From: a virus
Reading direction: 5' to 3' (one strand)
DNA length: 26,861 nt
Virus record (IMG/VR): IMGVR_UViG_3300047330_000021
Location: 1 to 26,861 of that record
Below the pieces are notes generated by a model, which worked only from the letters and a program-made list of their open reading frames with translations, did not search any database and was not told where the DNA came from. The translations under genes were made by a program, and so were the position numbers. The stretch's first letter is position 1; every line of letters begins with the position of its first letter. Shown here in pieces: positions 14,999-25,016 of this stretch.

Positions 14999-15151
14999 TC
15001 ACTCTCCTGTATATGTGGTGAGTTCGACATCGACGACGTCGTCTTCAAGGGCAAGAAAAGATTCGAGACCTTCCTGTATGATGAATGGTACTTTCAAGAC
15101 ACTGCCGTCTCTGTATGTGATAACTGCAATACGAGGAGGAAAATGGTTCAC
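14999..15151 (-). CDS. Small protein of unknown function (50 residues), coupled to the ATP-grasp gene
   Basis: Translation from GTG gives M-N-H-F-P-P-R-I-A-V-I-T-Y-R-D-G-S-V-L-K, V-P-F-I-I-Q-E-G-L-E-S-F, then L-E-D-D-V-V-D-V-E-L-T-T-Y-T-G-E. It looks like a small beta-sandwich or hairpin protein. The GTG overlaps the TGA of the ATP-grasp gene (GTGA), and its own stop is one base from the next ATG. It has GGAGG only after the start, so initiation probably depends on coupling to the ligase. Tight linkage suggests it might belong to the ligase pathway, for example as a peptide substrate or adapter; this is inference. Confidence 0.6.
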   Translation of the reverse strand: MNHFPPRIAVITYRDGSVLKVPFIIQEGLESFLALEDDVVDVELTTYTGE

Positions 15152-15945
15152 GGCATAAACTCCTTGAAGAAGTCGGCGTAGTCTTGGACGGTCTGACCTT
15201 CTAGTCCGGGAGCGGTATTGACTTCCAACACAGAGGCTTTCCCTCCTGTTGTAAGGATAACATCGACTGCACCAAAGTCGAGGCCCGTCGCTTCCAAAGC
15301 TCGCATAGCGGCAGACCGTACATGTAGCGGAACGTTAATTCCTTGGCGCTGGAAAACGAAACCGTTGGAGTGGGATCGGATGCGCCAGTCTGTTGGTTCT
15401 GTTCCATGCTTTGCTACTTTCTGTTGTTCTGCGATGACTACGAATGTGCCGTCAGAAGTCTTGCCGACGTGGATACGAAATTCTTTCTTCTTCTTCATGT
15501 ACCGTACATAGAGGGGAGCATCGACGAGATCGTCAGGAGTGTCAGCGATGACGATACCAACCCCTGAGTGGCCGTTGAGGACTGTCCGGCAGACGATCGG
15601 ATAAGCTCCTGCCGGAATGTATTCCTTGTCTGTCCAGAACTCAGGGACGATGTCGTCTTCGATTTCAGGGCTGACTGTGAAATCTTTCAGGAGTTGAAAG
15701 AACTTCAGTTTGTCAACAGCTTCTCTCACTTTTAGAGGACTATTCAAAATGGTGACTGTGGTATCCTCAGGGCAAGGGATGTGATGAAGGGAATGAAATT
15801 CAGAGGAACCCCAGTTAATAACGAGGGAATCATTCTTAACTTTCCACTTCGAGTTTGTGAGACGAAGAGCTTTGACGTCCAGGGCTTCGCAGAGAGTTTT
15901 GACACTCTTGCTTCCGGTTTTGTAAGGGAGAATTTTAACGGACAT
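15148..15945 (-). CDS. ATP-grasp ligase (RimK/D-Ala ligase-like)
   Basis: The 265-residue protein has an N-terminal Rossmann-like part, a nucleotide-binding region with I-V-C-R-T-V-L-N-G-H-S-G-V-G-I-V (Lys/Arg plus Gly-rich loop), L-Y-V-R-Y-M-K-K-K-K-E-F-R-I-H-V-G (edge strand with the R-x-H typical of peptide ATP-grasps), and the metal site V-L-E-V-N-T-A-P-G-L (Glu and Asn bind Mg-ATP). These enzymes join a carboxylate to an amine through an acyl-phosphate, often adding amino acids to a peptide or metabolite. It overlaps a GTG-started small gene and lies three bases after the amidoligase stop, with GAGGA before its ATG. With two amidoligases and two amidotransferases nearby it probably belongs to a multistep peptide-bond pathway. 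The substrate is unknown. Confidence 0.85.
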   Translation of the reverse strand: MSVKILPYKTGSKSVKTLCEALDVKALRLTNSKWKVKNDSLVINWGSSEFHSLHHIPCPEDTTVTILNSPLKVREAVDKLKFFQLLKDFTVSPEIEDDIVPEFWTDKEYIPAGAYPIVCRTVLNGHSGVGIVIADTPDDLVDAPLYVRYMKKKKEFRIHVGKTSDGTFVVIAEQQKVAKHGTEPTDWRIRSHSNGFVFQRQGINVPLHVRSAAMRALEATGLDFGAVDVILTTGGKASVLEVNTAPGLEGQTVQDYADFFKEFMP

Positions 15946-15947
15946 GA

Positions 15948-17090
15948 TTAATCCTCATCTGGGTCATAGTTCGACGTAGTTGGGTATTCTTCTGAAATGT
16001 CTGGAATAGAAAACCACTCATTGGCTTGAACAGTTGTAGGAGGTTGAGAAGTCACCGTCTGGTAAGAATGAGGAGCTGGTGCAGGTCCCAGAAGAGGCTT
16101 GTAGACAGGTCCATTAGCCAGAAGAGACTGCAACTCTACCTCTGACATTCCATAAGCCAAAGCTACATTTCCCGATTTCTTCTTAGGACGACCAAAAGGA
16201 TCGTCTTTAGATACTACAGGAACGAAAACAGACCAGTCACGACAGAAACAAATGTCCTGTGCCATTCTGATGCCTTCGTACAGGGAGTCAGAGATTTGGT
16301 CGTCGTTCCAGTCTATACCCTCACGGACGATATCATAGGTATCCCCGAGAATATTCCGCATGAAGAAGAGAGGGCCGCCGTACGAGAACGAGTTGCAAAC
16401 TTCCCGAGGATCAGGGAACTGCTCGGAGAACTCATAGAGACGACGATTGATAGCCACCCAATCAAGGATAAGTTGAGGATCGGTGGCACCACGAAGGTAA
16501 CGATTCTCCAAAGAACCAAACTTTGCCAGAGCCTGAATGTTCAGCCCGGCGTAATGAAGACCGTCATGGAGAGAGACATCGCCGTCACGCTGGATGAACT
16601 TCTTCAAGGTTTGTACGATGTTCGGAGCATCCTTGGCGCGAAGACAGAAGAGATTGCCGACACGATGATCGCCAGACCATTCTGCGAGGATTTCTTCGAG
16701 AGCAAACCACATCGCCGTAAATGAGGCAAGACGGTTGACATTCCAGAGACCGACGTTGAGATGGACGTGGACAGAAGTCCTGTTCGATTCATCCAATTCA
16801 GTTCCGTAATCCTTGAACAGAGTCCAGAGATGCTTGAGAGCATCCGGCACTTCGTCGAAAGTGATAGGAGCAGAAAGGACGTACTCGGCGTTATCTTCGC
16901 CACGGAGAGAATGATCTTCGTGGTAAGACCAGTACGGTTCGAGCTTGGCGCCTGACTTGTAGAACTTGTTGCCTTCGCATTCGATCTCCAGACCGATGTC
17001 ACCGAAGACCTTCCCTTTACTCATCAGGTTTCTGATTTCCTCACCGTACACTTTGTCTTTCAGTGCCGGTATAAAAACTGGATGAGCCAT
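15948..17090 (-). CDS. Amidoligase of glutamine-synthetase fold (Amidoligase_2-like)
   Basis: In this 380-residue protein G-D-I-G-L-E-I-E-C-E-G (about residues 30-40) supplies the paired Glu of the amidoligase metal site. Y-H-E-D-H-S-L-R-G (57-65) plus A-E-Y-V-L-S-A-P (68-75) and S-V-H-V-H-L-N-V (106-113) follow, matching the ordered motifs of the amidoligase family related to glutamine synthetase. L-E-N-R-Y-L-R-G is the downstream Glu/Arg motif. The chemistry is ATP-driven carboxyl-amine ligation. The C-terminal ~80 residues (Pro, Ser, Gln-rich) look disordered. ATG at 17090 is used because AAGGA is seven bases ahead and it overlaps the previous stop (TGATG); GTG at 17093 is the alternative. 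It stands second from the end of the ligase cluster. Confidence 0.82.
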   Translation of the reverse strand: MAHPVFIPALKDKVYGEEIRNLMSKGKVFGDIGLEIECEGNKFYKSGAKLEPYWSYHEDHSLRGEDNAEYVLSAPITFDEVPDALKHLWTLFKDYGTELDESNRTSVHVHLNVGLWNVNRLASFTAMWFALEEILAEWSGDHRVGNLFCLRAKDAPNIVQTLKKFIQRDGDVSLHDGLHYAGLNIQALAKFGSLENRYLRGATDPQLILDWVAINRRLYEFSEQFPDPREVCNSFSYGGPLFFMRNILGDTYDIVREGIDWNDDQISDSLYEGIRMAQDICFCRDWSVFVPVVSKDDPFGRPKKKSGNVALAYGMSEVELQSLLANGPVYKPLLGPAPAPHSYQTVTSQPPTTVQANEWFSIPDISEEYPTTSNYDPDED

Positions 17091-17845
17091 CACACAATCC
17101 TTCCAAAGTATTCAGTTGCTGCGATAACTTCAGTGAGATACTTGAAGTCGTCGCCAAGTTTCAACATCGTCTTGTCACAATGAGGACAGACACCGACGAT
17201 CTCGCTCTTGTATGCAACGAAAAGCATTCCGATAGGTCCTCGGATAAGGGCCAGTTTCCTGTCGAAAGCCACGCCACGATTGGCAATATCGGGATTATTC
17301 AAGGCTTCGAACGTCTCGTCGAGGCCAGGATAGTTACCCAATATAGTGTCTGCCAACTCATTTGACAAGAGGTTGATCTGACGATCTCGATAGGCATTCC
17401 CCCCGAAACAGACAGGAATCTGTGAGAGACTCTGGTTGTTAAGACCTTGTTCCGTACGGCGAGTAGGAGCCCTTTCGACATAGACACAACGGTCATCGAT
17501 GTTCACAAAACCGAGAGGAAATGGCCGGAACTTGTTGAAATGAGGAGAATTCATCTGTTTCCTGATTACCTTCGAATGAGGTTTCATCTGAAGGTACTGG
17601 TCACAGAGAGGTCCAACGGAAGGATTGTCTCCGCTGTTTTTCGAGATGCCATCGAAAGGGGAGAAACGCATCTCGGTTTCTTTGCCGTCACAGAGAGGTT
17701 CCATGTACACCCTGAAGATGTCGTCACCCATGTGGTTGGCAACAGCGAGGACGTGGTAAGGATGGCCGTCGTAGAGAATGACGGTACCCTTGATCCTCTT
17801 ATTAGCCTCAGGAAGAGACTCGTAGAAATTGGGATACTTCGCCAT
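17090..17845 (-). CDS. Uncharacterised protein between two amidoligases (251 residues)
   Basis: I do not recognise a catalytic domain. The N-terminal part (N-K-R-I-K-G-T-V-I-L-Y-D-G-H-P-Y-H-V-L-A) looks like a small SH3-like beta barrel. The middle has R-P-F-P-L-G-F-V-N and V-Y-V-E-R-A-P-T-R-R-T-E-Q-G-L, and the C-terminal part has V-C-P-H-C-D-K-T, one CxxC. The gene lies between the two amidoligases with coupling on both sides: the previous TAA is one base from its ATG, and its TGA overlaps the next ATG. Such constant placement suggests it is part of the ligase complex, perhaps a substrate-presenting or structural subunit. It could also be a ligase substrate. Both are inference. Confidence 0.6.
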   Translation of the reverse strand: MAKYPNFYESLPEANKRIKGTVILYDGHPYHVLAVANHMGDDIFRVYMEPLCDGKETEMRFSPFDGISKNSGDNPSVGPLCDQYLQMKPHSKVIRKQMNSPHFNKFRPFPLGFVNIDDRCVYVERAPTRRTEQGLNNQSLSQIPVCFGGNAYRDRQINLLSNELADTILGNYPGLDETFEALNNPDIANRGVAFDRKLALIRGPIGMLFVAYKSEIVGVCPHCDKTMLKLGDDFKYLTEVIAATEYFGRIV

Positions 17846-17846
17846 C

Positions 17847-18698
17847 TTAACCTTCCTTCACGATAGTTTTCAAAGGATAATTCCAACAGTACTCAAAATC
17901 CTGGTTACGGCGAGAAGAGTTGATAGCCTTGCAGAGGAGTTTGTTGGCATCACTACCACATTTCTCTGGCAAGTAGAGAACCGACATATCCCAGATGGCT
18001 TGGTTCATCCGATCCCAGACAGCTCTACGAAGAGATTTGCTCGTCAACCAGAAGTTGGACAGAACACGGTATTCGACGCCGTAATTCTTGTAGCGACATG
18101 CCCCTGCCTGTCCGTACAGGGAACGACGGATGTTGTCTTTGTCGGACAAGAGAGACCAATATCCGAGATACCAGTCGAGTTGCTTCACAAGGTCGGAGCA
18201 GTGATTGAGATGATCGATATCCTTCGAAAGATCGATATCCTGTGTCCAGCCGATATGGAGATGGCCGCTTGCCGTACGGACACGTTCGAGATCACCAACA
18301 GGTTTCGGGGAAGGATTCTGCATATTCGTCCAGCCGTTGAAGTCTGGGGTGCAGCCGAGAACCTTGGCAGAAGGAGGGATACGTTCCCATTCCTCGATGT
18401 CATACTTGACAGAAGGAACAATAGAGAGCTTGTACCCTTTCGGGAGGAAGGAGAGCAGACTTTTCATCACCTCGACGATGTTACGGTCGAAGTCTTCGAA
18501 GGTCTCGACTGGATCGATGTTGAACTCGGCGGCAGTGCCGTCGACTTGGATAGCTCCGTAAGGAACCTTGAAGGGCTCATCCTTCGTTCCAGGCAACAGA
18601 TCGTGTGCAGAGACGACACGACCTTCTGTGTTGAGAACAAACAATTCTGGGTCACACCCAAACTTGAATCCCGGCAGTGGTTTGATTGGAGCTTTCAC
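17847..18698 (-). CDS. COOH-NH2 ligase, phiEco32-like type 2 (PF14395-like)
   Basis: The 283-residue protein begins F-K-F-G-C-D-P-E-L-F (residues 11-20), the signature that opens the phage type-2 COOH-NH2 ligases. The other motifs follow in order: D-G-T-A-A-E-F-N-I (53-61), A-S-G-H-L-H-I-G-W (143-151) and G-V-E-Y-R-V-L-S-N-F-W (207-217). These are the glutamine-synthetase-fold metal and substrate residues. It should ligate an amine to a carboxylate using ATP, but its substrate has not been established in the literature I know. Start is GTG with AAAGGT at 7-8 bases; there is no nearby ATG. It is the first ligase after the class II amidotransferase and is coupled to the uncharacterised 251-residue gene. 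Confidence 0.85.
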   Translation of the reverse strand: MKAPIKPLPGFKFGCDPELFVLNTEGRVVSAHDLLPGTKDEPFKVPYGAIQVDGTAAEFNIDPVETFEDFDRNIVEVMKSLLSFLPKGYKLSIVPSVKYDIEEWERIPPSAKVLGCTPDFNGWTNMQNPSPKPVGDLERVRTASGHLHIGWTQDIDLSKDIDHLNHCSDLVKQLDWYLGYWSLLSDKDNIRRSLYGQAGACRYKNYGVEYRVLSNFWLTSKSLRRAVWDRMNQAIWDMSVLYLPEKCGSDANKLLCKAINSSRRNQDFEYCWNYPLKTIVKEG

Positions 18699-18720
18699 GA
18701 CTTAGACCTTTCTTGCTGAG

Positions 18721-19890
18721 TTAGAGATGGTTAAGGAGGGACTGGATACCTTCAGGAAGTGTAGGCAGTTCAGGCATGATGAGACGATTTTGTGACGAAT
18801 CGACTGAACATTTCGAACAGAGGATGATGTCGTCGTAGTTTACGACAGTGACGCCAACTGTATCAACATCGATGTCACTATTGCACCAAGAACAACCAAA
18901 GCTAGCCAGCTCATAAAATCGATCAATCGGGAGGTGTCCCGCGAAGGGATCGCTCTTGTCGGCGACGAGATTGATGAACTGGACGCCGTTTCGTCCGGTG
19001 CCGTTACCAGTCGAGCCAGGGGTTGTCGATGAGTTCTTGTTCGGTGTACTCGCCAAGTGTACGTTCGTGGTGCCATGGTGGTGAAAAGGGGTAGTCCCGG
19101 TGCTGTAGTGAGTTACAACCGGGGCAGGCTCCTTTCCCTTGAGTTGACCTTTCTTGGCGTATTCGAGAGGATAGTCCATGTCCGCCTTGTCGCGAAGCTT
19201 GTCGAGATCGAAGGTGTACAACTCGTCGATATCGGTGGCGAAGTAGGTATAACCCTCCGTCGACTGGGCCATGTCATACTTCGACGGCGACAAACCGATT
19301 GCAGCCTGTATCATAGGCCACTCCGACGCCCACATCACCTGCTGGTGGTTTTTCGAGACCGCCGTCCAAAAAGACCGCTCCTTGTTGCGGAGGAAGTTGA
19401 CAGTGTTTTCGTTCTTGTCGTACCAGACGAGTGCCCAGGCTCCTTGGAGGAGAGGGATTGTCTTGTGTACGCCAAACCGAGCGATATGGGTGAAGATAGC
19501 AAGGGAATCGACATCAAATTTTTCTCCGAGTTCGTCTTCCAACTCCATATGAGAGAGGATCGAGAGAGTTCCGTTGTGGGCACCGATGATGTGATCCACT
19601 ACGAAAGGATGGGCGTTATTGGCGTTGACCTTACCCTTCGTCGCTGCCCGGTTGTGGCCGATGAAGACAGAGCTTGCCGTACCCGAGAGGGCGGTGTCAA
19701 ACTTCTTGCTGTCGAACAGGTCGAGAGGATGACTGGCAATCTTGACGACATGGGTATCTTTTGTGGCATGTCGAACTGCTGCAAAACCAGTTGAGTCCAT
19801 GCCTCGGAAGTAGTCGTAGAGCATCAGGCGCTTCATTGTCGCCTCGTCGCGGTGTTCTAACACACCCATAAGTCCCACAAGCCCACACAT
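18721..19890 (-). CDS. Class II glutamine amidotransferase with C-terminal zinc ribbon
   Basis: Translation from the ATG at 19890 starts M-C-G-L-V-G, placing the catalytic Cys2 at the N-terminus after Met removal, as in Ntn-type amidotransferases. An upstream frame extension to 19905 would bury it and lacks an RBS; GGAG is seven bases before 19890. G-M-D-S-T-G-F-A, F-I-G-H-N-R-A-A-T-K-G and G-A-H-N-G-T are the Gln-binding and Arg/His/Asn motifs of the family. Residues ~270-300 are low complexity (His/Thr/Ser/Gly), and then C-S-W-C-N-S-D...L-C-S-K-C forms a zinc ribbon. There is no asparagine-synthetase domain, so it probably releases ammonia from glutamine for a partner ligase downstream (the COOH-NH2 ligase), or acts on a gamma-glutamyl group. 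Confidence 0.82.
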   Translation of the reverse strand: MCGLVGLMGVLEHRDEATMKRLMLYDYFRGMDSTGFAAVRHATKDTHVVKIASHPLDLFDSKKFDTALSGTASSVFIGHNRAATKGKVNANNAHPFVVDHIIGAHNGTLSILSHMELEDELGEKFDVDSLAIFTHIARFGVHKTIPLLQGAWALVWYDKNENTVNFLRNKERSFWTAVSKNHQQVMWASEWPMIQAAIGLSPSKYDMAQSTEGYTYFATDIDELYTFDLDKLRDKADMDYPLEYAKKGQLKGKEPAPVVTHYSTGTTPFHHHGTTNVHLASTPNKNSSTTPGSTGNGTGRNGVQFINLVADKSDPFAGHLPIDRFYELASFGCSWCNSDIDVDTVGVTVVNYDDIILCSKCSVDSSQNRLIMPELPTLPEGIQSLLNHL

Positions 19891-19914
19891 TGTATATCTC
19901 CACACAAATAATAC

Positions 19915-20640: not shown

Positions 20641-21483
20641 TCATACTTCCTGTGTAGGGACCTTCTCGGCTTGTTCCTTCATGAAACGCTCCATGATGTA
20701 CTCGGCTTTGAGACGTCGATGCTTCCCGCTAATTGCAAGATCGGTATTCAACTCGACGTAGTCATAGATCAGGTCGAGACACCACTTCGTGTATTCTGCG
20801 TAGCCACGGTATTCAGGATGTCCCTGTACGCCGATGCAGCATGTGTCACGAATGAAGAAAGCTTCGACGTCCTGATGGTTGCCGACTGCCTTCGTCGTGT
20901 CGTTGAACCAACGAGTCTTGCTGTTGTGGCCATGGGCGATGACTTCCATCCCAGGTCCCGAGATGACCATCTGATGATGGACAGACGAGACAGGCTGTAG
21001 ATACTTCTTGTTCTTCCTGTCGAAGATGCCGTGGTTCTGGTTGTGGCCGTCGACGTCCTGATAGAGCTTGAAGCCGTTCATCACTGCAAGGAACTGGGCA
21101 CCACGGCAGATACCGAACATAGGGATGCCGAGGGAGTGACAGAGGTTGTACAGATTGATGTCTTCCTTGTCACGCTCTTCGTCGTGTACGGTCGTCTCAT
21201 GTGGAAGCTCGCCGTACAGAGCAGGGTTGACGTCTGCACCGCCTGCGAAGACGACCAGATCAGCTTCTTCAGGAGTCTTGGCGTTGTAACACCGAGCCCG
21301 AGAGAACATCTCTGCGAACTGCCTCTTCTCAAAAAGGGAGCCCGTCAGATAAACCGACAACCACAGCTCCGGCATTTCCAGAGCTGAGTCCTTTTGCAGG
21401 ATGACTTTGTGTTGGCCTAGGAGCAGGCCGGGCGGACCATTGCTTGTAATGGTAGTCGTCCCAGTATCTTTCTGCATCGACAT
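20641..21483 (-). CDS. Class I glutamine amidotransferase (PuuD/peptidase C26-like)
   Basis: The 280-residue protein has the full class I triad: nucleophile Cys126 in F-G-I-C-R-G-A-Q, His222 and Glu224 in G-V-Q-G-H-P-E-Y. Oxyanion-side L-V-V-F-A-G-G-A-D-V-N-P (about residues 76-87) and S-S-V-H-H-Q-M-V (about 166-173) fit the gamma-glutamyl-gamma-aminobutyrate hydrolase (PuuD) subgroup. It would cleave a gamma-glutamyl amide or provide ammonia. The ATG at 21483 has AAAGGA eight bases ahead; the extension to 21522 is not supported. Its 5' 155 bases overlap another gene in a different frame. With a cyclotransferase and ligases nearby, editing of gamma-glutamyl groups is plausible. The C-terminal 30 residues are extra and charged. 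Confidence 0.85.
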   Translation of the reverse strand: MSMQKDTGTTTITSNGPPGLLLGQHKVILQKDSALEMPELWLSVYLTGSLFEKRQFAEMFSRARCYNAKTPEEADLVVFAGGADVNPALYGELPHETTVHDEERDKEDINLYNLCHSLGIPMFGICRGAQFLAVMNGFKLYQDVDGHNQNHGIFDRKNKKYLQPVSSVHHQMVISGPGMEVIAHGHNSKTRWFNDTTKAVGNHQDVEAFFIRDTCCIGVQGHPEYRGYAEYTKWCLDLIYDYVELNTDLAISGKHRRLKAEYIMERFMKEQAEKVPTQEV

Positions 21484-21643
21484 ATTCCTTATCCTTTTTT
21501 GTCGCTTGGATAGTTTTGACATCCATGTGATCCACTTCTTCTAACACAACCTCCGTCATAAGGGCGAAGGCCTCGTCGTGATAACCCCACTCCTTTAGCC
21601 CGATGGCACGATAAAGTTTGAACTGATTGAGGGCATTTCTCAT
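21329..21643 (-). CDS. Unknown protein overlapping the class I amidotransferase start (104 residues)
   Basis: The first half (M-R-N-A-L-N-Q-F-K-L-Y-R-A-I-G-L-K-E-W-G, then A-F-A-L-M-T-E-V-V-L-E-E-V) is helical and protein-like. The second half (W-S-A-R-P-A-P-R-P-T-Q-S-H-P, G-L-S-D-G-L-P-F at the end) is Pro/Ala/Gly-rich and lies within the amidotransferase gene in another frame over 155 bases. The ATG at 21643 has two G-rich Shine-Dalgarno-like stretches upstream (GAAGG close by, GAAGGG further away); an in-frame TTG is at 21661. No family is recognised. Both frames seem to be genuine coding in part, so one of the ends may be shorter than annotated. Confidence 0.5.
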   Translation of the reverse strand: MRNALNQFKLYRAIGLKEWGYHDEAFALMTEVVLEEVDHMDVKTIQATKKDKEYVDAERYWDDYHYKQWSARPAPRPTQSHPAKGLSSGNAGAVVVGLSDGLPF

Positions 21644-21661
21644 ATCCTTCTTTCCCTTCAA

Positions 21662-21675
21662 GGGACTTCAGTCCC
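21662..21675. other. Small stem-loop in the intergenic gap
   Basis: GGGAC (21662-21666) pairs with GTCCC (21671-21675) around a four-base loop. There is no T-run after it on either side, so it is not a clear terminator. It may shape mRNA cleavage or translation of the 104-residue gene. Confidence 0.4.
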
Positions 21676-21686
21676 GAACTCTTTCC

Positions 21687-22373
21687 TTATGCCGGTTCGG
21701 TTACGACCTTGGCTGCGAAGGGGTTGGAGACTGCCTTGGTCTCGGCAGGGTTGTGACCTTTGATCTCCGACTCTCCGTAAATCTTCGTCTTGCGAGAATG
21801 CCAGATTTCGTGAGGAGTCATCGTCGGCTCAGGAATCTTCAGCCATGCCGCAGGAGGTGTGAAAGGATCAGTGACGGCTGAATTCGAGATATTCCGAAAA
21901 AGGGCAAAGATATGGTTCTTGTGAGGGTAATTCCCTTCGACAGGTTCGAGAGGGACTTCCTTCGAGGTGTAGACGGAATTACCTACCGTACGGAGGAATT
22001 CGAAGCCTTCAGCCTTGAGAATCTTCAGCCACTCCTGTCCATTCCGATCCCGCATCTGACTATCAGAAAAGATGGCAAAGAAGGTGTGATCGGGTAAATT
22101 GTCCGTACCGAAAGTACCTATACGGATGAAATTCTCGAAGATTTCTCTGTTGGTCTTACCGAGATAGGCAAACTCGGTCTTGCCGTTGACAGTCACAGTC
22201 AGGGCGCTGTCGTTCTTACCTTCACGGTCGCCGCAGTAGAGTTGGACGGAGGCAGGTGCGTCAGGATCGTTCACAAAACCCTGAATGATATCGACGGCAC
22301 AACAGCCGATACCTTCACCGCCATGCTGTGAGCCGAAACGAAGAAACTCGATCTTGCTTGCAGAATATGCCAT
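21687..22373 (-). CDS. Uncharacterised CC-motif protein in the ligase cluster (228 residues)
   Basis: The N-terminus holds F-L-R-F-G-S-Q-H-G-G-E-G-I-G-C-C-A-V-D-I-I-Q-G-F. A later part has G-Q-E-W-L-K-I-L-K-A-E-G-F-E-F-L-R-T-V-G-N-S and K-N-H-I-F-A-L-F-R-N. The same elements (H-N-G-M-C-C-G-I-K-H-I-F-G-F; L-L-E-R-G-F-R-V-V-N-E-V-R-N-S; R-V-Y-H-L-N) occur in the next gene upstream, so the two are probably paralogous. I do not recognise an enzyme family. The adjacent cysteines could be catalytic, metal-binding or a conjugation site. ATG at 22373 with AAGGAG eight bases upstream is used; the frame continues to 22556 but that part is shadow of the neighbour. C-terminal region is Pro/Lys-rich and likely disordered. 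Confidence 0.6.
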   Translation of the reverse strand: MAYSASKIEFLRFGSQHGGEGIGCCAVDIIQGFVNDPDAPASVQLYCGDREGKNDSALTVTVNGKTEFAYLGKTNREIFENFIRIGTFGTDNLPDHTFFAIFSDSQMRDRNGQEWLKILKAEGFEFLRTVGNSVYTSKEVPLEPVEGNYPHKNHIFALFRNISNSAVTDPFTPPAAWLKIPEPTMTPHEIWHSRKTKIYGESEIKGHNPAETKAVSNPFAAKVVTEPA

Positions 22374-22395
22374 CACTCTTTCTCCTTGTTTGTTG

Positions 22396-22824
22396 TTAGT
22401 CGTCGTCAGGGTCGTAGTCGTATTCCATGTTGAGGTGGTAGACCCGACAGATGTTGTCGGAGTTGCTATTCCGAACCTCGTTGACGACACGAAAACCTCT
22501 CTCCAGAAGCCTCTTCTCGTTGACGACGATCTGGTCCCCGTCTCCGTCATACCCACGAGCCAGGACAGCCTCTACGATGCCTCCAGGACGCTCTGCCTTG
22601 ATGTAGGCAAGGAACCTGTCCAGACGAGCCTCCACGGTCTCCTTAGGGGCTGAGGGAGTGAAGAAAGAGAGATAGGATCGAACCTCTGACCCAGAAGAGT
22701 CTTCGTCGTCGAATTCAGGCTGCTCTTCCAACTCCGGTTCCATCACCTGATTAGGATAGGACGGAAAGCCAAAGATGTGTTTGATGCCGCAGCACATGCC
22801 GTTATGACAGGAAATTCTAAGCAT
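22396..22824 (-). CDS. Uncharacterised CC-motif protein, paralogue of the following gene (142 residues)
   Basis: It begins M-L-R-I-S-C-H-N-G-M-C-C-G-I-K-H-I-F-G-F, has an acidic linker (E-F-D-D-E-D-S-S-G) and a C-terminal domain with G-G-I-V-E-A-V-L-A, L-L-E-R-G-F-R-V-V-N-E-V-R-N-S-N and C-R-V-Y-H-L-N. The last part resembles small phage domains with G-F-x-x-V-N-x-x-x-N-S-N and a final beta strand; I know of no function. AGGAGG lies nine bases before the ATG at 22824, so the longer frame to 22875 is not used. The ATG overlaps the cyclotransferase stop (ATGCTTAG). Tail is acidic (Y-D-Y-D-P-D-D-D). Confidence 0.62.
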   Translation of the reverse strand: MLRISCHNGMCCGIKHIFGFPSYPNQVMEPELEEQPEFDDEDSSGSEVRSYLSFFTPSAPKETVEARLDRFLAYIKAERPGGIVEAVLARGYDGDGDQIVVNEKRLLERGFRVVNEVRNSNSDNICRVYHLNMEYDYDPDDD

Positions 22825-23260
22825 AGCTCTTTTCCTCCTTCTTGGCCCGATTTTGCTCCGAGCGGTGCAAAGCACCTAAGGTGCGGAGCGAGGTATAATC
22901 CAGCCAGTCCGAGCCGTGGATGAGTTGATCGAGAGGAGGTGTCGTGTGGAACTCATAGATGAAGCCGTCGAGTCCGTCGATGTTGACGAGATGCCGTACA
23001 TAGAAGGAATGATCTGGGGCGTCAGGAATGAAGCCTTCGTAGTCATCCAGACGAGCAAGGCCGTCGTCATCGACCTGTATGACGTCACAGAGGACGGAAT
23101 AGCCGTCATCCGAGAGACGTAGGGCCGGGAACCATCCCATGTCGAATAAAAATCCCTGGACTTGGACTTGACGACCAGTGTCATGGATGAAATTCATCCA
23201 ATGCTGGCGCTCTTCTCGTTTTCGGAGAGTGCCGTAGGCGAAGACGTTGTGAGCTGCCAT
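22817..23260 (-). CDS. Gamma-glutamyl cyclotransferase (GGCT/AIG2-like)
   Basis: This 147-residue protein has V-F-A-Y-G-T-L-R (residues 6-13), the substrate-binding loop of the family, and L-D-D-Y-E-G (71-76) with the catalytic Glu75. Such enzymes cyclise a gamma-glutamyl group to 5-oxoproline, releasing the attached amine; F-I-Y-E-F in the second half fits the barrel. ATG at 23260 with AGAGGAGAG upstream overlaps the previous stop by one base (TGATG); GTG at 23263 is the alternative. The C-terminal ~12 residues (S-L-R-T-L-G-A-L-H-R-S-E) are encoded by a palindromic repeat that occurs elsewhere between genes, so the tail is a recent addition. It may edit or recycle products of the nearby ligases. 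Confidence 0.85.
   Translation of the reverse strand: MAAHNVFAYGTLRKREERQHWMNFIHDTGRQVQVQGFLFDMGWFPALRLSDDGYSVLCDVIQVDDDGLARLDDYEGFIPDAPDHSFYVRHLVNIDGLDGFIYEFHTTPPLDQLIHGSDWLDYTSLRTLGALHRSEQNRAKKEEKSYA
22854..22890 (-). repeat. Palindromic repeat copy A, inside the cyclotransferase gene
   Basis: Read on the - strand it is CGCTCC, GCACC-TTA-GGTGC-TTT-GCACC, GCTC, GGAGC. The outer GCTCC/GGAGC arms enclose three blocks of which the central GGTGC can pair with either neighbour. It matches copies B and C in inverted orientation and supplies coding sequence for the cyclotransferase C-terminus. Confidence 0.8.
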
Positions 23261-23430
23261 CACAATCTCTCCTCTTTGAATGCCACTTTCGTTGGAAGGT
23301 ATTTCTTTGTCACTTCATATATAGCAACGTCTTCGCCTTCTTGGAGACGGACGTCAGCTATCGAGAAAGCCTCTTCATACGAAGGAAACTCCTCAGAAGA
23401 GAAGACTTCGACCACGACAAATTTCGCCAT
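23260..23430 (-). CDS. Small protein of unknown function (56 residues)
   Basis: Translation gives M-A-K-F-V-V-V-E-V-F-S-S-E-E-F-P-S-Y-E-E, A-F-S-I-A-D-V-R-L-Q-E-G-E-D-V-A-I-Y-E-V, ending Y-L-P-T-K-V-A-F-K-E-E-R-L. The alternating strands and a helix suggest a compact alpha/beta domain. AAAGGA lies seven bases before the ATG, and the stop overlaps the cyclotransferase ATG (TGATG). It exactly fills the gap between two larger genes. The coupling to the cyclotransferase is the only functional hint; no family is recognised. Confidence 0.65.
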   Translation of the reverse strand: MAKFVVVEVFSSEEFPSYEEAFSIADVRLQEGEDVAIYEVTKKYLPTKVAFKEERL

Positions 23431-24137: not shown

Positions 24138-24305
24138 CTACTTTGACCCTAGCCGTGACCCTAGCCCTGACAGTGACCGTGATCGTGACCCTGACCGTGA
24201 TCGTGACCATGGCCCTGACAGTGACCGTGACCGTGACCGTGACAGTGACCGTGACAGTGACCATGACCCTGACAGTGACCGGTATCTTTGTTTAACTAAT
24301 CTCAT
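24138..24305 (-). CDS. Ser-X dipeptide repeat protein, copy 3
   Basis: Third of three tandem genes. Start [10 protein letters not shown], then alternating Ser with Leu, Gly, Trp or Arg for almost the whole length ([14 protein letters not shown]), 55 residues in all. AAGGAG lies six bases before the ATG at 24305, in a junction shared with copy 1 and 2, and the TAG stop overlaps the next gene's Shine-Dalgarno. The repetitive array keeps all three frames of this strand open, so the translated frame is inferred from the RBS and ATG. The protein would be basic, disordered or beta-like and resembles eukaryotic RS domains only in composition. Confidence 0.55.
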
Positions 24306-24306
24306 A

Positions 24307-24507
24307 TCAGTCTCCTTGATATGACCATGACCATGGCCATGACCATGGCCCTGACCCTGATCCTGGCCGCGACCCTGACCCTGACCATGACCGTGACCAT
24401 GACAATGACCATGACCATGACCATGACCGGGACCCTGACCATGACCGTGACCCTGACCCTGACCCTGCCCGTGACCGTGACCGGTATTTTTGTTTAGCCG
24501 ATCTCAT
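24307..24507 (-). CDS. Ser-X dipeptide repeat protein, copy 2
   Basis: Second of the tandem genes, 66 residues. It begins [13 protein letters not shown] and continues with Ser alternating with Gly, Arg and Trp ([10 protein letters not shown]) to Y-Q-G-D. TGAGG is five bases before the ATG, and the TGA stop is one base from the copy 3 ATG (TGATATG), a coupled arrangement. Copy 2 has slightly more Gly and Trp than the others. No similar phage protein comes to mind. Confidence 0.55.
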
Positions 24508-24514
24508 ATCAGCC

Positions 24515-24739
24515 TCACTTGATAAGCCCTGACCATGACCATGGCCGTGGCCATGACCCTGACCGTGACCATGACCATGACAGTGACCGTGATAGTGACC
24601 GTGACCCTGACCGTGACCATGACCATGACCGTGACCGTGACACTGACCCTGACAGTAACCATGACCCTGACAGTGACCGTGACCGTGACAGTGACGGTGA
24701 CCCTGACAGTGACCGGTACCTTTGTTTAACTGATCTCAT
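24515..24739 (-). CDS. Ser-X dipeptide repeat protein, copy 1
   Basis: First of the three genes, 74 residues, M-R-S-V-K-Q-R-Y-R-S followed by about 31 Ser-X units (X is Leu, Gly, Arg or Trp; one Pro and one Val) ending W-S-W-S-G-L-I-K. The ATG at 24739 has TGAGG five bases upstream. The stop ATCAAGTGA is the same octet that ends the preceding 89-residue gene, showing that the duplicated unit spans the gene junction. The in-frame extension to 24844 lies inside the other gene and is a shadow. Translation is inferred from the RBS; the protein may be a minor product of a DNA element. Confidence 0.55.
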   Translation of the reverse strand: MRSVKQRYRSLSGSPSLSRSRSLSGSWLLSGSVSRSRSWSWSRSGSRSLSRSLSWSWSRSGSWPRPWSWSGLIK

Positions 24740-24746
24740 ATCAGCC

Positions 24747-25016
24747 TCACTTGATAATACCAAAGCTCTCGATAGCAGACGTCTGGATATAAAGGGAGTT
24801 GGGCAGCTTTTGGGCATCTTTCCAAGTCTTGGTGTCAAATGCACCTGTTTCGTACACGATGAAGGGATTTTTGATGAGAATGCAGGTGTCGTTGACGCAT
24901 ACCAGTTCTCCTGTATAGATGTAGTTCATACAAAAGAAGGTGACAATCTGTCCCAACAGAGAAACGAGACCTTCGTTGGCGACTTCGACGACTTCGACAG
25001 TGACAGCTTTCTTCAT
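24747..25016 (-). CDS. Conserved-looking phage protein, unknown (89 residues)
   Basis: The sequence (V-G-x-like L-L-G-Q-I-V-T-F-F-C-M-N-Y-I-Y-T-G, E-L-V-C-V-N-D-T-C-I-L-I-K-N-P-F, I-V-Y-E-T-G-A-F, W-K-D-A-Q-K-L-P, Y-I-Q-T-S-A-I-E-S-F-G) is beta-rich and looks like a short barrel. It matches, by my recollection, a small protein family spread among phages without a known role. AAAGGA lies eight bases before the ATG. A pyrimidine-rich leader (25034-25061) and a palindrome (25072-25087) come before it. Its 3' end is part of the repeated junction of the following Ser-X genes, so the ancestral duplication probably began here. Confidence 0.68.
   Translation of the reverse strand: MKKAVTVEVVEVANEGLVSLLGQIVTFFCMNYIYTGELVCVNDTCILIKNPFIVYETGAFDTKTWKDAQKLPNSLYIQTSAIESFGIIK

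Follow-up and report, generated by a model that had tools for sequence, protein, structure and literature searches.

Some eukaryotic Sm proteins join a ring domain to an Arg/Gly-rich disordered tail, and the RS domains of SR proteins are built of serine-arginine dipeptide repeats. Bacterial Hfq is reported (PMC5606850) to be a small RNA chaperone that has the Sm fold and a C-terminal part that is disordered. Here we analyze a 26,861-base virus record (IMG/VR IMGVR_UViG_3300047330_000021), the whole of which we refer to as the window, that carries a hexamer array behind a small gene designated U. We propose, with a probability of about 0.6, that the hexamers are the coding DNA of a basic, aromatic and presumably disordered (Ser-[Arg/Gly/Trp])n protein, which forms a two-gene cassette with the upstream Sm-like U. 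At the sequence level this proposal draws on the reading frame, a conserved leader, the linkage of U to arrays, a frequent 4-nt overlap between the two genes, the joint retention of Arg, Gly and Trp (R+G+W) and synonymous codons that are fixed inside any one array.

The hexamer array forms the body of three tandem genes

The window carries phage genes, among them a ribonucleotide reductase, a DNA polymerase and a primase/helicase. Elsewhere on the minus strand lies a peptide-ligase-like gene cluster (15148-19905 and 20641-23263) with a COOH-NH2 ligase, an amidoligase, a RimK-like ATP-grasp protein, two glutamine amidotransferases and a gamma-glutamyl cyclotransferase, which suggests phage-made peptide or amide modification.

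Tandem Repeats Finder reported 91.5 copies of a period-6 repeat at 24153-24715, for which the coding strand is the minus strand. The hexamers are not one array; they constitute the main part of three genes that lie in tandem on the minus strand, have the form M..(S-X)n and directly follow the 89-aa gene U (24747-25016, minus strand, stop codon TGA at 24749-24747), and two leader/junction stretches break the repeat. Array gene 1 (24515-24739, 74 aa) begins with MRSVKQRYRS and continues with Ser-X dipeptides in which X is R, G, W or L. Array genes 2 (24307-24507, 66 aa) and 3 (24138-24305, 55 aa) each begin with a 10-residue leader, and X is R, G or W in the former and R, G, L or W in the latter. 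All three share the leader MR..KQ(R/K)YRS. A Shine-Dalgarno-like GAGG for array gene 1 overlaps the stop codon of U (24748-24745), a second GAGG (24516-24513) overlaps the stop codon of array gene 1, and an AAGGAG (24317-24312) for array gene 3 is located within the end of array gene 2. In the window, U and array gene 1 are separated by 7 nt and do not show the 4-nt overlap. The array proteins have a predicted pI of 12, a charge of +8.5 to +13.5, up to 10 Trp in 66 residues, approximately 36-39% Ser and GRAVY values of -0.80 to -1.28.

Across the 86 X+S units, with terminal units counted, the X codons are CGG (25), GGG (20), TGG (20), CTG (10) and others (11), with CTG used in array genes 1 and 3 and absent from array gene 2. 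AGG does not occur in any of the 86 X slots and its lone occurrence is in the leader of array gene 1. The third base of X is G in 79 of 86 units, and TCA fills 69 of the 86 Ser slots, with CCA in six and others once or twice each. A first-pass annotation of this DNA had reported that Ser is almost always TCA, that X lacks AGG and that third bases stay fixed, and these three points hold. Taken as a whole, the observation follows the right trend with some overstatement. Its further claim that a single base varies goes too far, because CTG is a second-base change, CCA, CTA, TTA or GCA occasionally replaces TCA, and some synonymous changes are present (GGA 2, CGA 2, TCC 1, TCG 1).

U and array genes occur together

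Many arrays begin at the stop codon of U. Relatives of U were collected with two short patterns and fall into two types, U1 (the window type, ending in ..IESFGIIK; 254 relatives) and U2 (typically ending in ..LPREQK; 382 relatives), which align to each other with an hhalign probability of 98.9. We examined the best 80 of the 254 and 79 distinct loci of the 382. In scans seeded with array-linked U, an alternating-Ser array followed U at 135 of the 139 loci for which 150 nt or more of downstream sequence was available, the other 20 of the 159 loci having less than that. The four loci without a scored array comprise two with short arrays (L504, L604) and two with none (L556, L558), and L680 and L740 hold further U genes without an array.

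The association was also evident from the array side. Upstream ORFs were first sorted as U1, U2 or other by regular expression, with six placed by hand, and were retested with profile HMMs. The profile HMMs found U on the same strand in 119 of 132 mixed-array loci with at least 450 nt upstream, immediately before the array in 109, and detected no U in 13, as compared with 5 U-bearing loci among 140 whose Ser arrays are of other kinds. The 6 kb on either side of 104 loci hold 2829 ORFs; U was present at 101 of these loci, and apart from U the sole family shared by at least 6 loci is an ORF antisense to U (9 loci).

Of 122 scored gene pairs, 84 have an array start codon that overlaps the U stop codon by 4 nt (37 of 63 with U1 and 47 of 59 with U2). 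Leader type also follows U type. Using leader classes defined by regular expressions that were composed after the leaders had been seen, 49 of 135 loci combine a basic leader with U1, 47 combine an LRxG-type leader with U2 and none is crossed, while 3 matched both classes, 23 matched neither and 13 were not scored. Fused U-array ORFs were found in none of 159 loci. From the frequent 4-nt overlap, the exclusive match of leader to U and the rarity of either gene alone, we consider it very probable that U and the array products act together. In one contig (L072, from 6308 onward in minus-strand coordinates) a typical array gene with a U2-type leader sits behind a 934-aa ATPase-like ORF in place of U.

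U is predicted to adopt an Sm-like fold

The 89-aa U ORF of the window is conserved in a 42-row alignment of U1 (A1), from which fragments and long starts were dropped by eye (L081, L187, L133, L156, L193, L238, L223, L234, L240). For the U2 alignment (A2), L407 was moved in from A1 and L136, L219, L210, L180 and L204 were left out. AlphaFold2 monomer models of U1 (pLDDT 93.5, pTM 0.78) and U2 (pLDDT 91.8) are both small barrels, with the short helix and five-stranded small barrel of the Sm fold as a prediction. The 50 Foldseek rows listed for U1 are spliceosomal, Lsm, decapping-complex and SmAP entries, and the rows for U2 are nearly all Sm/LSm, with 7zs2 and 9bxa_B as clear exceptions. VIA-align gave Z scores of 9.7-10.8 for U1 and 8.8-9.9 for U2 in the Sm/LSm rows. 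After strand 3, U1 and U2 alike carry a conserved (E/D)TG motif.

The Foldseek E-values are modest (best 1.9e-3, none at or below 0.001), and the Pfam LSM cut-off was not reached, with a single PF01423 match among 42 U1 members (E 0.021) and none listed for 47 U2 members. Sequence profiles of the PDB gave no match for A2 and one chance-level match for A1. Because of the modest E-values and the Pfam result we call U Sm-like in predicted fold and not a member of the family. With that wording, the models make an Sm-like fold for U a confident prediction.

Related arrays in other phages

Viral contigs were scanned with TCANNG, TCBNGG and AGYNGG patterns, yielding at least 120 loci each; these were not deduplicated by contig and the counts are not abundances. 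Among the matches listed (120 each), R+G+W arrays numbered 57 for TCA, 96 for TCB and 24 for AGY, as compared with 4 of 120 listed loci for a Thr control pattern (six copies of ACNNGG) under the same lack of deduplication. The TCA scan also returned a different Gly/Ser/Asp-rich repeat protein (GDGSGSCYGSG..; L028, 10391-10972 in minus-strand coordinates). No match was found to a DNA pattern specific to the leader.

Among 129 arrays reached via U, the major Ser codon is TCG in 59, TCT in 30, TCA in 19, AGC in 19, AGT in 1 and TCC in 1, with a median dominance within the array of 1.0. Surroundings are GC-richer for arrays with TCG and CGG and AT-richer for those with TCT, TCA and AGG. X is Gly in 34%, Arg in 29% and Trp in 27% of cases, and all three reach at least 5% in 123 of the 129 arrays. 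At one further locus (L671) a divergent U is followed by a Thr-[R/G/W] array, whose start overlaps the U stop codon as GTGA; this suggests that it is the small hydroxyl residue that matters and not the Ser codon.

Runs of several tandem array genes are seen in L127, L164, L026 and L138, with eight array ORFs in L127. Several contigs start or end inside an array (L005/L080, L049/L073, L084/L122), which probably reflects breaks in short-read assembly and would leave array genes under-counted.

Codons are homogenized within arrays while composition is retained

Heterozygosity was calculated for 117 distinct arrays reached from U alone (the 129 minus 12 repeats of identical sequence). The mean was 0.61 for the choice of R, G or W, as compared with 0.085 for the Ser codon, 0.070 for the third base of Gly and 0.038 for AGG versus CGG in Arg. 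AGG and CGG both encode Arg, hence first bases A and C are synonymous in the X slot. First bases G and T occur together in 107 of the 117 arrays and A and C together in 6, with A present in 52 arrays and C in 63 (Fisher p 1.5e-17 for A/C exclusion, with arrays treated as independent though the phages are related). Since G/T and A/C are both transversion pairs, mutation bias alone should not separate them.

Between phages the codons switch. Where two U sequences are 70-90% identical, their arrays use different Ser codons in 220 of 358 pairs and different Arg codons in 172 of 350, as compared with 0 of 14 pairs at 90% identity or above (115 arrays, after exclusion of those with fewer than 8 Ser or less than 80% Ser-codon dominance). 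TCN and AGC are not joined by any single silent step. Leaders have a pN/pS of 0.35 (15 distinct, U2-type) and 0.44 (6 distinct, U1-type). The composition itself is not tightly held for Arg and Gly (standard deviations of 0.120 and 0.128 versus binomial expectations of 0.091 and 0.096), and the value for Trp is 0.087 versus 0.090.

Codons that are homogenized within a phage and switched between phages, with a constant residue mix, indicate that selection acts on the protein, and we conclude that the array is almost certainly coding and selected for composition. Array units would multiply and be replaced through slippage or unequal recombination, erasing synonymous differences, and selection would retain a mix of cationic, aromatic and flexible residues as the units turn over. 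One array thus holds selected and neutral variation together, with R/G/W kept and synonymous codons fixed. Selection for residue diversity, one of the possibilities raised in the first-pass annotation, agrees with this result, since the R/G/W mix is kept in the same arrays from which synonymous variants are purged. The same annotation suggested slippage expansion with one permissive base; slippage is retained here as the homogenizing process, but the base is not simply permissive, as A and C exclude each other where G and T co-occur. To take the pattern as the opposite of purifying selection was a misreading, as synonymous uniformity within an array reflects the shared recent descent of its units.

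Alternative explanations

We considered whether U and the array could instead be a toxin-antitoxin or anti-defense cassette of diverse phages, with the array protein as the effector and U as its partner or regulator. Two small overlapping genes in otherwise differing neighborhoods, and three array genes per U in the window, would be in keeping with such a cassette. We think it unlikely. U is predicted to be Sm-like and is no known antitoxin, and among 47 U2 members scanned against PADLOC one matched, weakly, a restriction enzyme (E 0.0085).

It could also be that the element acts at the nucleic-acid level, with a GG recurring at six-base intervals along the coding strand that could serve two-layer G-quadruplexes or period-6 RNA contacts for a ring protein, for example, the peptide being a by-product. 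X is NGG in almost every phage. It has G as its second base in 3071 and as its third base in 3144 of 3408 codons, though Gly and Arg have other codons; Gly is GGG in 1075 of 1151 cases in arrays versus 137 of 891 in U genes. Our explanation of this bias is that Trp has one codon, TGG, so that units in which a one-base change swaps W, R and G, and which still recombine with each other, must be NGG, and copying would suffice without a second function. NGG use shows no clear relation to Trp content (Spearman -0.13, p 0.16). The A/C and G/T contrast tracks the amino acid, the leaders are conserved as protein and Ser can be replaced by Thr, all of which argue against a nucleic-acid element and leave it rather improbable.

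An Arg/Trp-rich membrane-active peptide, lytic or antimicrobial-like, would fit the pI, charge and Trp content of the window proteins. It is very unlikely given their high Ser content and negative GRAVY values, and given that the partner is a predicted Sm-like barrel and not a lysis protein.

A neutral microsatellite that expanded within a reading frame would account for the local copying seen as lag similarity within arrays, and for the variation in array number and length among close relatives of the window (L084, L087 and L103 keep the leader but have 1, 2 and 1 array genes, versus 3 in the window, and the gene lengths differ). However, TCANGG arrays in bacterial genomes (117 loci) are mostly of one unit, with a single residue in 97 and R+G+W in 1, and the mixed locus, L254 on an archaeal MAG contig, is a phage-type pair with the array after U. 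Neutral copying should also purge R/G/W just as it purges AGG/CGG, yet monotonous arrays linked to U are rare, with 6 of 129 lacking one of R, G and W at the 5% level. We reject neutral slippage, which we regard as highly improbable, on the monotony of the bacterial arrays and the contrast between A/C and G/T.

The GGTCA core that the first-pass annotation put forward as a DNA-binding constraint is nearly constant in the window but is not conserved among related loci, where the major Ser codon is TCG, TCT, TCA or AGC and differs in most U pairs of 70-90% identity, so we reject it with hardly any reservation. The annotation had named synonymous substitution with conserved residues in related phages as the finding that would favor ordinary protein selection; such substitutions are seen, between phages and not within one array, and they count against the core, which is not supported.

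Distribution and novelty

U1, U2 and the window array proteins could be assigned to no family in PHROGs, in Pfam or, for representatives, in NCBIfam, and we judge the scattered weak library matches of single U or array members to be at chance level. One such case is the L152 array protein, whose NCBIfam matches to Ser-rich staphylococcal adhesin repeats fall below the cut-off (best E 0.0029) and were set aside as low-complexity chance. Two U queries each found one record among 50,697 isolate records, both from Manatee Spring metagenomes; in these two metagenomic GenBank records U is followed by an array, annotated as hypothetical proteins in one and unannotated in the other. U2 had no match among plasmids. 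We found no description of the U-array pair in listings of open PMC papers, and the only literature match to array peptide strings was an unrelated vaccine design, judged by title. The pair is present in hundreds of uncultured phage contigs, by the counts of U relatives from short patterns, nearly absent from isolate records and without a family name in the libraries scanned. The predicted fold of U is a known one.

Proposed role and comparison with known systems

For the two-gene cassette of U and a Ser-[Arg/Gly/Trp] protein, the likeliest role may be an RNP in which an Sm-like RNA-binding protein receives a multivalent tail from a translationally coupled gene, a suggestion that goes further than the gene arrangement and the fold prediction themselves. 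U would bind RNA, probably in the form of a ring. The coupled repeat protein would serve as its separate multivalent tail, with Arg and Trp as stickers and Ser and Gly as spacers, and the resulting phage RNP or condensate could store, protect or remodel RNA during infection. An RNA-binding or condensing role is plausible at somewhat less than even odds. More tentative is the full picture of a split Sm-type RNP in diverse uncultured phages, in which a ring protein and a separate Ser-[Arg/Gly/Trp] sticker-and-spacer protein, selected for composition and encoded by a gene that turns over as a microsatellite, build phage RNA condensates in the infected cell. If the RNP reading is true, the pair would be a minimal natural sticker-and-spacer system.

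Phage DUF6948 proteins are structural neighbors of U in BFVD (ranks 5, 17 and 40), a likeness in structure. No Hfq entry occurs among the matches listed in the structure searches with U, and we know of no Hfq counterpart to the (E/D)TG loop after strand 3. Compared with SR proteins, the array proteins are phage-encoded, X is about one third Gly and one third Trp, and no RRM was found (array genes 1-3 had no PHROG match and gene 1 had no Pfam or NCBIfam match). With Sm proteins that have RG-rich tails, and with archaeal SmAP/LSm rings, the likeness lies in the predicted fold of U. Unlike these Sm/LSm proteins, the phage system is without Pfam LSM membership and has as its low-complexity part a separate, presumably translationally coupled gene of Ser-[R/G/W] dipeptides.
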